From contig CALAJH010000053.1 of the NCBI GenBank assembly GCA_937922655.1, positions 1 to 64,000 on the forward strand: DNA of 64,000 bases, read 5' to 3'. This DNA comes from an uncultured Bacteroidia bacterium. Lineage in GTDB: Bacteria > Bacteroidota > Bacteroidia > J057 > CALAJH01. Below the pieces are notes generated by a model. It was not told the DNA's origin, ran no database searches, and saw only the letters and a list, made by a program, of their open reading frames with translations. Shown in pieces: positions 3,543-10,868 of this stretch. Each line of letters opens with the position of its first letter. The stretch's first letter is position 1. The position numbers and the translations under genes were made by a program.

Positions 3543-3851
3543 ATGAAAAAGACGGTTTTGGAAGAGCTGGCTTTTGCCCGTTCGGGGGACAAAAACGACG
3601 TTTGCAACATAGGCGTTATGGCCCGCCGTCCCGAGGATTACGACTTTTTGGTGCGCGAATTGACGGCCGAACGCGTCAAAGCGCACTTCGGCGCCTTGAT
3701 TCAAGGTCCCGTCGTTCGTTACGAATGGCCGGCCATCGAGGCCCTCAACTTCGTGTGTTACGCCGCCCTTGACGGAGGTGCGTCCCGTTCGCTCAGGATG
3801 GACGCCTTGGGTAAAAATTTTGCCTCCCATCTCTTAACTTTGGAATTGTAA
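3543..3851 (+). CDS. AtuA-related small protein (AtuA C-terminal-type domain)
   Basis: 102 aa. The pattern LAFARSGDKNDVCNIGVMAR, then LTAERVKAHF, GPVVRYEWP, LNFVCYAALDGG and SRSLRMDALGK is the signature of the small domain found at the C-terminus of AtuA-type proteins (acyclic terpene utilisation) and also as a separate gene. Here it stands alone, with no large AtuA (DUF1446) partner in the window. No catalytic role is established for the domain. It is followed after 30 nt by the cysteine-less ArsC-like gene on the same strand, probably co-transcribed. Confidence 0.8.
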   Translation: MKKTVLEELAFARSGDKNDVCNIGVMARRPEDYDFLVRELTAERVKAHFGALIQGPVVRYEWPAIEALNFVCYAALDGGASRSLRMDALGKNFASHLLTLEL

Positions 3852-3881: not shown

Positions 3882-4355
3882 ATGAAAATACTGGTATTGG
3901 ACGATCGCAATTCGGTGCGCAGCCAGATAGCCGAAGGTTACTTGCGTGTTTTTTTGGGTGCTGAGGCGACGATACTTAGTGCGGGCAAAAATGCTTACGG
4001 CCTCGACCCGCTTGCCGTACGCGTTATGGCCGAAGACGGGGTCGATATTTCCACCCAATCTTCAAAAACCATGGTCGACGTCTTTGAACCCGAAGAGCAT
4101 TCCGATTGCGTCATTACGTTTAGCGACGACGCCGTCGAACATTTTCCCGTACCCGTCGGAGGGGTTTATCATATTCATCGATACGTCGACGATGTTTCCA
4201 AAGCCGTTTTGTCGGACGAAGAAAAACTCGAGCGTTTACGCGCCCTAAGAAACGAGCTCAAGGAATTTCTTGCGTTCTTTGCCCAAAAACCGGATTACTA
4301 CTTAGTTAAAGACTTCCTTGAAGAAAGGGTGGCTTTGCCCGAATTTGCCCGATGA
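3882..4355 (+). CDS. ArsC/LMW phosphatase-fold protein lacking all catalytic cysteines (putative pseudoenzyme)
   Basis: 157 aa from the ATG at 3882. The protein follows the thioredoxin-coupled arsenate reductase/low-molecular-weight tyrosine phosphatase fold: an N-terminal KILVL strand, a P-loop region, RSQIAEGYL helix, SAGK strand, GVDIS and the DCVITFSDDA strand, then a VDDV segment and C-terminal helices. In active ArsC the P-loop reads C-T-G-N-S-C-R-S-Q; here it reads D7-D-R-N-S-V12-R-S-Q, so both P-loop cysteines are gone. The positions of the resolving cysteines carry S81 and F88. It therefore cannot use the known mechanism. It may be a binding or regulatory protein (inference). DNA read codon by codon at 3882-3947 confirms the substitutions. 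Follows the AtuA-like gene by 30 nt. Confidence 0.8.
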   Translation: MKILVLDDRNSVRSQIAEGYLRVFLGAEATILSAGKNAYGLDPLAVRVMAEDGVDISTQSSKTMVDVFEPEEHSDCVITFSDDAVEHFPVPVGGVYHIHRYVDDVSKAVLSDEEKLERLRALRNELKEFLAFFAQKPDYYLVKDFLEERVALPEFAR

Positions 4356-4585
4356 GTTTATAGTCGGCGTGAAAATTTTGACTTGCACGCTCAATGTTTT
4401 TGTAATAAGAGCGCGGCCGTTCGTTTGAATGGAACCGACAACGACGAATAGACGCCAATTGGTGAATTTGGTTTGTGTGTCGGGGATAATTGCGAGGAAA
4501 TTGATTGGGTTGTTTGTGGTTTACGCATCGCCTTGAAATTTAGGCGCAGGGGTCTGCGCGTTTGGGTTTTCGTCGTTGTCAAACG

Positions 4586-4617
4586 TTCCGTAAGCTTGCG
4601 GAAGGGTTGTTTTTTTT
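4586..4617 (+). terminator. Rho-independent terminator
   Basis: Stem TTCCGTA / TGCGGAA (4586-4592 and 4597-4603, one G-U pair) with loop AGCT, followed by GGGTTG and T8 at 4610-4617. It lies downstream of the AtuA-like/ArsC-like pair. Confidence 0.55.
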
Positions 4618-4704
4618 CTGTTTGTTGGGCGCTTGGCGCAAAAAGCGGGCGTTATGCACCGAACGCCGGGGAAAAAGCGGGGGCGGACGGGGGCGTCGGG
4701 CGCT

Positions 4705-4712
4705 TATATTTG
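4705..4712 (+). promoter_or_regulatory. -7 promoter element, TATATTTG
   Basis: Perfect TAnnTTTG. It places transcription start near 4716-4720, which rules out the longer upstream frame of the J-domain gene. Confidence 0.55.
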
Positions 4713-4741
4713 CACCGACGATGACGACGTGGGCAAGTCGA

Positions 4742-5590
4742 ATGAGGGTGGCGCTGTCGGTGGAAAACTATTCGGCGGCGGAAAGTTTGTGTGCCGAAGC
4801 CGGGGCGTGGGAGCCGGTGGTCGTCGCCGTTCGCGCCCGGCGCTACGACGAAGCTCTTGCGTGGCTCAACGAGTTGGCCGTCGCCCGGGTTCCCGACCCC
4901 GTCGCTCTTAAAATCCGCGTTCTTATCGTCGAAGCCGAAAAACAAATCGTTGCTTTGGAAACCGAACTTTCCGATGCCGAACGTCTGGTTTTTGCTTTTA
5001 ATCGGGCTTATTACGCACGCTTGGGCGTACACTTGGCCGAACTGCTTAAAATCAAACAGGAAATTTACCGTCGTTGGGCGGAAAAAGACCCGTCCCGACA
5101 AAGTCAATACGACGAGGTCAAAAACGACTATGAACGATTGTATCAATCGCCGAAAGAGGAGCCGCCGCCGATGGCTCCCGAGGCCGAGGCCGAACTCAAA
5201 GACTATTTCAAAAAAGCCGTCAAGCTGTGCCATCCCGACGCCGCGCCGCCCGACCACGCCGAAGAAGCCGCCGCCGCCTTTATGGCCCTCAAAGCCGCGT
5301 TCGACAGAAACGATCTGCACGCCGTCAAAAACATTTTTCAACGCCTAAGTCAAAGTCGGTATTCTTTCAACGTGCCGACCGAGCGTGTCAAACTTCAGCT
5401 TCGCCTCAACGCCTTGCGTGAAAAGATTACCGCCCTCCAACTCAAAATCGGTTCTTTCAAAGCCGGCGAATCTTTCCGTTTGGCTTCCGAACTCACCGAT
5501 TGGAACGCTTATTTCGTCAAAATGCAGTTGAAAATCGAAGAGGAAATTCGCCAACACCGCAAACTTAAAGCGGAGATGGCCCTGTGGTGA
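4742..5590 (+). CDS. J-domain-like protein with flanking coiled coils
   Basis: 282 aa from the ATG at 4742; an ATG at 4721 is the alternative and would be almost leaderless. An N-terminal helical part has a TPR-like start (YSAAESLCAEAG, YDEALAWLNEL), followed by a coiled coil (about 60-135). A degenerate J domain with the diagnostic HPD tripeptide at 164-166 (AVKLCHPDA) follows, then a second coiled coil (about 215-280). J domains stimulate Hsp70 ATPase; this architecture with no glycine-rich or zinc region suggests a specialised co-chaperone. The last codons overlap the GTG start of the ABC ATPase gene, so the two are translationally coupled. Confidence 0.7.
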   Translation: MRVALSVENYSAAESLCAEAGAWEPVVVAVRARRYDEALAWLNELAVARVPDPVALKIRVLIVEAEKQIVALETELSDAERLVFAFNRAYYARLGVHLAELLKIKQEIYRRWAEKDPSRQSQYDEVKNDYERLYQSPKEEPPPMAPEAEAELKDYFKKAVKLCHPDAAPPDHAEEAAAAFMALKAAFDRNDLHAVKNIFQRLSQSRYSFNVPTERVKLQLRLNALREKITALQLKIGSFKAGESFRLASELTDWNAYFVKMQLKIEEEIRQHRKLKAEMALW

Positions 5591-6174
5591 GCTTGGTGGC
5601 GGAAAACGTTGCTAAGCGCGGCGTTTTCGCAAACGTAAATTTTTCACTCGAAACGGCAAAGAGAATGGCCGTCGTGGGCGCCAACGGCGCCGGCAAATCG
5701 ACGTTGTTGAGAATCATTGCCGGCGCCGCCGCGCCCGACGTCGGAAACGTCCGTTTTTTCGATAGCGATGGTGAAATTGCCGTCGAAAAACGTTACCGGC
5801 ACGTTTCATGGTCGGGACCGAACGTTGAATTTCCTCCCGACATTTCCATGCGCGATGCTTTTAAACTACATTTTTCTTTTCGCGTTCCTTGGGCAAAACC
5901 CGAACAAATCGCACAAATCATTCGTTTGCAAACGCATTTGGACAAAAAATTGCGACATTTTTCTTCGGGAATGCTTCAACGTTTCAAGGTGGGGACGGCG
6001 CTTTTCACCCAAAGCGCCCTGTTGATTTTAGACGAACCTACGGCGTTCATGGACGTCGAAAACGCCCGTTACGTTTGGCAACTCATTGAAGAACATTTGA
6101 ACGGAAGAACGTTCGTCGTTGCCACCAACGACCCCGCCGAGGCGGAAAAATTCGACGTTCGCCTAAGGTTGTAG
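5584..6174 (+). CDS. ABC transporter ATP-binding protein (short, CcmA-like)
   Basis: 196 aa, about the size of a minimal ABC ATPase. Walker A is GANGAGKST (32-40), the signature is SSGMLQR (127-133), and Walker B is LLILDEP (146-152). The H-loop position reads ATNDP, so the usual histidine is asparagine (N182). The GTG start lies within the J-domain gene (7-nt overlap). No permease is adjacent: the next gene is convergent and unrelated. The partner membrane protein must be encoded elsewhere, or the ATPase has a non-transport role. Confidence 0.85.
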   Translation: MVSLVAENVAKRGVFANVNFSLETAKRMAVVGANGAGKSTLLRIIAGAAAPDVGNVRFFDSDGEIAVEKRYRHVSWSGPNVEFPPDISMRDAFKLHFSFRVPWAKPEQIAQIIRLQTHLDKKLRHFSSGMLQRFKVGTALFTQSALLILDEPTAFMDVENARYVWQLIEEHLNGRTFVVATNDPAEAEKFDVRLRL

Positions 6175-8235: not shown

Positions 8236-9687
8236 TTAGACGGCGGAAACGTCGGCCGAATTCATCCGTTGGTGGAATTCGGCCAATTTTTTGCGGTCGA
8301 TTTTATTGCTGTCGGTTTGGGGAAAGGGAGCGGTGAAAATCACGGACTTCGGAATCATGTAGGTCGGCAGCTTATCGGAGAGTTTGGTTTTGAGTTCGGA
8401 TTCCGAGCCGTTCAAACTTTCCACAAAAGCGGTCAATATTCCATTGGATAACATGACGACCGTCTTGCATCCGGTAAATTCGTGAATGACGCACTCGATT
8501 TCTCCGGGTTCTACGCGGTATCCGTCCACTTTGATTTGAAAATCCTTTCTACCGATGAAGTTCAATCCATTGGAATTGGCAAAAACCTCGTCGCCGGTTT
8601 TGTAATAACGTTTGCCGTCGATATAGACGAAAACGGATTGTGTTTTTTCGGGGAGGTTGAGGTAACCGTCGGCGAGTTGTTCGCCCGCTAAAAGCAGTTC
8701 GCCGCGTGGATGCGGTTCGAGGCGGATTTCGGTACCGGGCAAAGGCTGTCCAATGGGAACGATGCCCAAAAGAGATTCGTCCACGTGGCGGTTCCAGACG
8801 TGGCGCGTGCAAAAAATCGTGGCTTCGGTGGGGCCGTAAACGTTTTCGATTTGGGCGTCGGGTACGCACGGCGCCCAATCGGCCACGTCTTTTTGATACA
8901 AAGGCTCGCCGCAAAACAGGTGCAAACGCACGCTCGGCGCGAGGATTTCGTGCAAATAAGGACGCAAATAGCTTAGAACCGACGGTGCGGTCAGAGCGAC
9001 GGTGATTTTTTTCTCCATCAACGTTTCGGCCACGGCGAGCGGTACCGACGGCGAATTCCTTGGTACAACCACGCACTTGGCGCCGTTCATCACGCTCATC
9101 CAAAAGCCGAAGCCCGACAGGTCAAAGGTCTGTTCGAACATTTGGAGAACGATATCCTTTTCGTGAATTCCGTAACATTCGCAGGCGGCCAGCAAAAACG
9201 CAAACAATGCCGAACGCGCTACGACCACGCCTTTGGGCCGACCCGTACTTCCCGAAGTATACAATACATAAACGGGCTTGGCGTCGGAAACGGCTCCGGG
9301 CAACAGCGGTTCGTCGGAAATTTTCAAATCCTGCGTACAAACAAACGAATATTTGCCCGTATTGCGCGGCCAATGCCCAAAAACGCACGCGGGTTGGCAA
9401 TCATTAAGCATGTAATTGACGCGTTCGTCGGGATAGTTTCTTCCAATGGGAACGTAAGCCCGACCGATGATTACCGAAGCCAGCATTACGGCGTAAGACC
9501 ACGGTTCGTCGGAGGAAAAGAAAGCGATGGGTCCGGGTTTTCTTTTAACGGCGTGGGCAACGGCGTGGGCGGCTTTGAAAAGCTGTCCCAACGTCCAATC
9601 GTCGCCGTCGCCTGCGGACAATACTCTTCGAGATTCGAATTTGTCGAGCGCTTGGACAAGGGTTTTGTTGAGACTGCGTTTGGTCAT
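8236..9687 (-). CDS. Stand-alone amino-acid adenylation (AMP-dependent) ligase, DltA-like
   Basis: 483 aa, the size of a free adenylation domain such as DltA. Core motifs are intact: A3 YTSGSTGRPKG, A5 NVYGPTEATI, A7 YYKTGDE, A8 GRKDFQIKVDGYRVEPGEIE, A10 NKIDRKKL with the catalytic lysine. Members activate a carboxylate as an AMP ester and load it on a carrier protein. No carrier protein, DltB-like acyltransferase or NRPS module is in the window, so the acceptor is unknown. Its ATG overlaps the pgk stop (ATGA), making it the third gene of rhomboid-pgk-ligase. Confidence 0.85.
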   Translation of the reverse strand: MTKRSLNKTLVQALDKFESRRVLSAGDGDDWTLGQLFKAAHAVAHAVKRKPGPIAFFSSDEPWSYAVMLASVIIGRAYVPIGRNYPDERVNYMLNDCQPACVFGHWPRNTGKYSFVCTQDLKISDEPLLPGAVSDAKPVYVLYTSGSTGRPKGVVVARSALFAFLLAACECYGIHEKDIVLQMFEQTFDLSGFGFWMSVMNGAKCVVVPRNSPSVPLAVAETLMEKKITVALTAPSVLSYLRPYLHEILAPSVRLHLFCGEPLYQKDVADWAPCVPDAQIENVYGPTEATIFCTRHVWNRHVDESLLGIVPIGQPLPGTEIRLEPHPRGELLLAGEQLADGYLNLPEKTQSVFVYIDGKRYYKTGDEVFANSNGLNFIGRKDFQIKVDGYRVEPGEIECVIHEFTGCKTVVMLSNGILTAFVESLNGSESELKTKLSDKLPTYMIPKSVIFTAPFPQTDSNKIDRKKLAEFHQRMNSADVSAV

Positions 9688-10868
9688 GCGAGAGCTTCAA
9701 TACCGGGGAGGGTTTTAAACTCTAAATATTCAAGCAGAGCTCCGCCGCCCGTGGACACAAAAGAAAGTTCGTGGGCGCGGCCAAATTTTTCGGCGGCGGC
9801 GGCGCTGTCTCCTCCGCCGACCAACGTATAGGCTCCCGCACGCGTCGCTTCAACCAAAGCGTCCAAAATGCCAACGGTGCCGTTGGCAAAAGCGGATTTT
9901 TCGAATACGCCGGCGGGTCCGTTCCAAAGTATTGTTTTACAGGTCAATAGGGCGACTCGGGCGGCTTCGATGGTTTTCGGACCGATATCCAATCCCATGC
10001 GGTCGTCGGGAATTTGGCGGGCGGCACAGACGGCGGCGCCCGTCTCGTCGTCCAAACCGGCGGCAACGACGGTGTCTTCGGGTAAAATCATTCGTATCCC
10101 TCGCGCTTCGGCTCGAGACATAATTTGCAATGCAACGTCGGTTTTATCCGCCTCCAAGAGCGACTTGCCCACTTTTCCACCTTGCGCATGAATAAACGTG
10201 AACGCCATACCTCCCACAACAACCACAACGTCCGCCGTTTCGACCCAATTTTTCAATACGCCGATTTTGTCGGAAACCTTTGCCCCGCCCACGACCACCC
10301 CAAACGGGCGGCGTATGCCGTCTATAACCCGTTTGGCGTTTTCGATTTCCGCGGCCATGAGATAGCCGGCGTATTTTTCTTGAAAATACTTGGCCACCAC
10401 CGCCGTGGAAGCGTGAGCGCGGTGGGCGGCGCCAAACGCGTCGTTAACGTAGACGTCGGCCAATTCCGACAGTTCTCGCGCGAGGGTTTCGTCGCCCTTT
10501 TCTTCGCCGGGGTTGAAACGGATGTTTTCCAGCAACGCGACGTCGCCCGGCGCCAAACTTTCACAAAATTCTTTCAATTCCCGACTGCCCACGGGCGCGG
10601 CCGAAAACAACACGCTTTTATCCAGCATTTCAGCCAAAGGATGATGCAAATGGCGTAAACTGTATTTAAATTCACGATTCTTGGGGCGACCGAGGTGAGA
10701 AACGAGGATGACGGCGCCGCCGTCGTTCAAGACGTGCCGAATGGTAGGCAACGCGGCACGGATGCGTCGGTCGTCTTCGATTACGTAATTATCATTGAGG
10801 GGTACGTTGAAATCTACGCGAACCAAAGCTTTTTTTCCGGAAAAGCGGCCTTCTTCGATGGTTTTCAT
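9684..10868 (-). CDS. pgk: Phosphoglycerate kinase
   Basis: 394 aa, full length. It catalyses 1,3-bisphosphoglycerate + ADP to 3-phosphoglycerate + ATP. The N-terminal KKALVRVDFNVPL motif, SHLGRPK, LLENIRFNPGEEK, DAFGAAHRAHAST, GGAKVSDKIGVL and the C-terminal nucleotide loop TLVGGGDSAAAAEKFG are all present. It is preceded by the rhomboid gene and followed by the adenylation ligase, both through ATGA overlaps. Glycolytic pgk is more often next to gap or tpi, so this grouping is unusual. Confidence 0.97.
   Translation of the reverse strand: MKTIEEGRFSGKKALVRVDFNVPLNDNYVIEDDRRIRAALPTIRHVLNDGGAVILVSHLGRPKNREFKYSLRHLHHPLAEMLDKSVLFSAAPVGSRELKEFCESLAPGDVALLENIRFNPGEEKGDETLARELSELADVYVNDAFGAAHRAHASTAVVAKYFQEKYAGYLMAAEIENAKRVIDGIRRPFGVVVGGAKVSDKIGVLKNWVETADVVVVVGGMAFTFIHAQGGKVGKSLLEADKTDVALQIMSRAEARGIRMILPEDTVVAAGLDDETGAAVCAARQIPDDRMGLDIGPKTIEAARVALLTCKTILWNGPAGVFEKSAFANGTVGILDALVEATRAGAYTLVGGGDSAAAAEKFGRAHELSFVSTGGGALLEYLEFKTLPGIEALA

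Follow-up and report, generated by a model that had tools for sequence, protein, structure and literature searches.

The window analysed here, a stretch of 64,000 nucleotides from an uncultured Bacteroidia bacterium (contig CALAJH010000053.1, positions 1 to 64,000), carries on its forward strand an intact open reading frame (ORF) at 3882-4355, with an ATG start, 157 codons and zero stops or frameshifts, which encodes a protein of the arsenate reductase (ArsC) fold without the four catalytic and resolving cysteines. A small gene for a stand-alone AtuA ferredoxin-like domain ends 30 bp before its start, and co-transcription of the two genes across this gap is possible. The features are as follows:

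3543..3851, + strand, upstream gene, stand-alone AtuA ferredoxin-like domain (AtuA_ferredoxin, PF23544), 102 aa
3882..4355, + strand, ArsC-fold protein without the four catalytic/resolving cysteines, 157 aa
3900..3926, + strand, P-loop codons DDRNSVRSQ, residues 7-15 (canonical CTGNSCRSQ), with R13 retained
4122..4145, + strand, codons 81-88, SDDAVEHF, the segment of the second cysteine pair in ArsC, with S81 and F88
4191..4196, + strand, codons 104-105, general-acid Asp D104 retained and the next Pro replaced by V105

Further along the window, the gene at 4562-5590 gives a weak DnaJ match of 17.7 bits, which is below the cut-off, and is immediately followed by a lone ABC ATPase of 196 aa (5584-6174). 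On the opposite strand, the 483-aa product of 8236-9687 resembles, by eye and from sequence only, a stand-alone adenylation (AMP-binding) enzyme, and the start of its gene overlaps the end of what by eye is an apparent phosphoglycerate kinase gene (9684-10868). A promoter and terminator scan returned counts without clear excess over shuffles.

The homology of the 3882-4355 product to ArsC is well beyond chance, with sequence matches in the PDB to the ArsC chains 2ipa_B (E 9e-19) and 1jl3_A (E 1.2e-17), and identity to 1jl3 is 36% across the whole fold. The TIGR02691 model (arsC_pI258) gave 82.6 bits (E 2.7e-23), which does not reach the NCBIfam equivalog cut-off of 174.3, although canonical Bacteroidota ArsCs, at 153-159, likewise lie below that value; Pfam LMWPc (PF01451) gave 24.8 bits, barely above its cut-off of 23.2. 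The AlphaFold model, calculated from a 13-sequence alignment, has a mean pLDDT of 79.4 and a pTM of 0.78 with a confident core, and its top structural match is B. subtilis ArsC (1jl3_A; Z 22.0, rmsd 1.6 Å, 135 residues). A C-terminal tail runs approximately 20 residues past the ArsC end; pLDDT is below 50 from residue 143, residues 143-157 being unreliable and this extension poorly modelled. The assignment to the ArsC/low-molecular-weight (LMW) phosphatase fold, which had been made in a sequence-only reading of this DNA, is therefore borne out by the PDB sequence matches and by the superposition on B. subtilis ArsC, and the protein belongs, as a divergent member, to the pI258/B. subtilis-type ArsC group with the LMW-PTP fold.

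The positions of the catalytic and resolving cysteines are occupied by D7, V12, S81 and F88, with a P-loop of D7-D-R-N-S-V12-R-S-Q, as that reading had stated. The nucleophilic Cys and the cysteine relay (C10, C15, C82 and C89 of pI258) are thus absent, and the CX5R motif of the LMW protein tyrosine phosphatases reads DX5R. Such a protein would be expected neither to reduce arsenate nor to act as a phosphatase through a thiol, since the established mechanism of the ArsC and LMW-PTP enzymes needs the lost thiols. Thirty-four columns were defined as conserved (at least 95% identical among 104 CTGNSC-type homologues), and the protein retains 22 of these, including N10, S11, R13, S14, Q15, the SAG at 33-35, D104 and R123, in agreement with the claim that the surrounding scaffold residues are preserved. 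The 12 altered columns are C7D, T8D, G9R, C12V, N42D, V80F, C81S, C88F, F102V, P105V, G110L and F119L, such that retention stands at 65% compared with 89% in the least-conserving canonical member. The P-loop arginine and the VDD segment had also been said to remain; R13 and D104 are indeed kept, but the proline following D104 is lost (P105V). Sequencing error or a frameshift is an unlikely source of these changes, as the altered codons are scattered and a change of two bases is required in five of them.

With D7 at the place of the nucleophile and both R13 and D104 retained, an altered enzyme can be envisaged in which D7 would act for the Cys while R13 and D104 work as in the LMW-PTPs, and the fold can phosphorylate a residue other than Cys, because a B. 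subtilis YwlE C7S structure contains a phosphorylated active-site serine (title of 4kk4). However, the family-invariant T8, G9 and P105 are also altered and Asp stands at the nucleophile position in no relative read, thus making this enzyme very improbable. A similarly slender chance is given to the wider case, in which the Cys nucleophile would have given way to a pocket of Asp residues serving a new chemistry or a new ligand, be it phosphotransfer with Asp as nucleophile or a metal bound by D7/D8 together with acids close by, while R13 and D104 would remain functional. The sequence-only reading had itself suggested a binding, sensing or regulatory role, possibly for a phosphate or arsenate-like oxyanion; the retention of R13, N10, S11, S14 and D104 is consistent with an oxyanion sensor or binder that would use the emptied P-loop. 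However, two aspartates, D7 and D8, now lie at and next to the nucleophile position in the anion pocket, G9 is changed to Arg, and genes for a regulator or transporter are not found directly beside the ORF, which together make such a sensor improbable.

ArsC of the same kind is carried by only two others among the 22 genomes of the order, whilst matches to the protein were found in 170/395 genomes of the class sample and 242/395 of the phylum sample. The closest match is 50% identical over a 104-residue piece, the best full-length match is 47% identical, and a scan of the genome contigs gave a single relative at 30%. About 170 Bacteroidota relatives were read, together with phage-contig copies, and each has the nucleophilic Cys where its P-loop is covered. 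Of 132 extracted sequences other than the query, every one that covers the P-loop has this Cys (two entries stop short), as do all of 64 additional matches, among them phage-contig loci and some duplicate entries; the best matches of the plasmid search are ArsC by annotation only. In three relatives, L218 (G648), L085 (G359) and L109 (G301), the nucleophilic Cys is kept and the second P-loop cysteine is Val, Thr or Ala, therefore that position is more easily lost. No relative sharing the cysteine loss was read among the 22 genomes of the order, the class and phylum samples (395 genomes each) or the phage contigs. A family of cysteine-less relatives, and with it the conserved pseudoenzyme family considered in the earlier reading, is accordingly not supported by the sequences read; the protein is a singleton in the samples examined.

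In a tree of 71 sequences, in which few branches are supported, the query forms a lone long branch, with a terminal length of 2.85 changes per column, the median being 0.24. Judged by this length, the cysteine loss does not look recent. The possibility had been raised that homologues carry the cysteines and that this copy alone lost them recently; the first half agrees with the nucleophile kept by the homologues, whereas the branch length speaks against the second.

No Acr3 was found above the cut-off in the window's genome, where the one match, of 27 bits, falls on a locus for an SBF family protein; ArsB was not found in that genome, and no ars genes adjoin the 3882-4355 ORF. The canonical relatives L067, L068 and L069 adjoin ArsR-type regulators together with an SBF/Acr3-type transporter or a methyltransferase. 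The same genome also encodes an ordinary LMW-PTP (L001) as well as another ArsC-like protein (L002, G000:C1:209422-209781), which has several cysteines and the P-loop CVENAGRSQ; the frames around the latter resemble, by eye, SbcD and DHH proteins and not ars genes.

A rival account is that of a gene in decay, an arsC left behind after loss of its ars operon which would be drifting under weak or no selection and would still be unbroken by a stop or frameshift. The changes common to no relative, the very long branch, the lack of efflux genes to serve, the 12 altered columns out of 34 and the poorly modelled C-terminal extension are all in keeping with such a relic. Set against these are the 22 retained columns, the confident model core and the outcome of a neutral simulation, in which a consensus-like ancestor was allowed to drift until 12/34 conserved columns had changed. 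Of the runs, 10% stayed free of stop codons and so kept the frame open, 0.3% accumulated five or more changes that each required at least two base substitutions, and 0.025% did both. The simulation disfavours plain drift, with the caution that the chosen start sequence drew in part on the query itself and that the case was picked for its lost cysteines. Decay is thus a tenable but rather unlikely account, and the earlier statement that the gene is not simply decaying is upheld by the absence of stops and frameshifts and by changes unlike those of simple neutral decay. Codon adaptation is uninformative as a sign of selection, as the value for the ORF (0.664, inside the range spanned by the neighbouring genes but at its low end) is matched by reverse frame 0 (0.662).

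The neighbouring gene at 3543-3851 had been pointed out earlier as an AtuA-like pairing partner of the ArsC-like gene. Its product is the small partner of AtuA, here detached from it; in genome G007 this small gene comes immediately after AtuA, and in the window's genome AtuA lies on a different contig (G000:C5:265808-267154). The small gene also stands alone in four other genomes of the order (products 64-73% identical to that of 3543-3851), and in none of them was an ArsC found near it in the stretches read. The stand-alone form is therefore not peculiar, and the pairing is not conserved and is incidental. A functional link between the ArsC-like protein and AtuA was rejected, as the adjacency is not conserved among genomes of the order.

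The reading which we prefer over a dying relic, an oxyanion sensor or an Asp-nucleophile enzyme is that of a relic of ArsC which has been retained as a binding or scaffold protein without catalytic activity, with a probability of roughly 0.55. The gene would have originated as the arsC of a Bacteroidota ars operon, encoding a thioredoxin-coupled enzyme of the LMW-PTP fold, and in a lineage without Acr3/ArsB efflux pumps it may have been freed from arsenate reduction. Selection would still have held the fold while the nucleophile, the relay of thiols and some of the P-loop were lost, leaving a protein that would most likely bind or scaffold through its ArsC-derived surface and perhaps also its short C-terminal extension. 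We infer the ongoing selection and the binding role from the intact ORF, the superposition of the model, the 22/34 columns kept, the simulation, the lack of ars efflux and a parallel in kinetoplastids. However, the branch length of 2.85 and the eight conserved columns lost besides the cysteines fit relaxed constraint, there is one sequence only, and the gene neighbourhood is not conserved. Its position 30 bp upstream is all that makes the AtuA small protein a candidate partner. Provided that the window protein is produced and adopts its fold, bacteria would have an equivalent of the inactive ArsC homologues found in trypanosomes, and the ArsC scaffold would be reusable without thiol chemistry. 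The label 'arsenate reductase' would be wrong for this ORF, because the genome is without Acr3/ArsB and the protein cannot use the known mechanism.

Amongst known systems, the thioredoxin-coupled ArsC of the pI258/B. subtilis type (1jl3, 1jf8; TIGR02691) has in common with the window protein its fold, length and NSxRSQ P-loop tail, together with SAG, M49, DIS, the P-loop Arg and the acid Asp, but the window protein is without the four working cysteines, T8, G9 and P105, has a C-terminal extension and is encoded outside an ars operon. The LMW protein tyrosine phosphatases and the arginine phosphatase YwlE have the same fold and the same P-loop Arg and acid Asp positions; however, they need the nucleophilic Cys which is absent here, and the window sequence is nearer to ArsC. 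ArsC is unrelated to the AtuA small protein PF23544, whose adjacency to the ArsC-like gene is seen only in this genome. A parallel exists in kinetoplastids, where the catalytic Cys of ArsC homologues is replaced by Gly and both landmark cysteines are gone whilst the P-loop Arg and acid Asp are kept (PMC2175518); a literature search for ArsC without cysteines returned nothing besides the trypanosomatid papers. These proteins (Tb09.160.2100 and orthologues) share with the window protein the loss of the catalytic and two landmark cysteines and the kept Arg and Asp, but have Gly and not Asp at the nucleophile position, contain two long insertions and are eukaryotic, whereas the window protein is bacterial. 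In T. brucei, an LMWPc-domain protein that the PDB calls mt-SAF26, and which is probably Tb09.160.2100, is a chain of mitoribosome assembly intermediates (6sga, 7pua) and matches the window protein both in sequence and in structure (Z 17-19; 7pua_FW, Z 18.7). Because the kinetoplastid homologues show a similar loss, the window protein is not categorically new, and is instead a new bacterial variant of the dead ArsC known from kinetoplastids.
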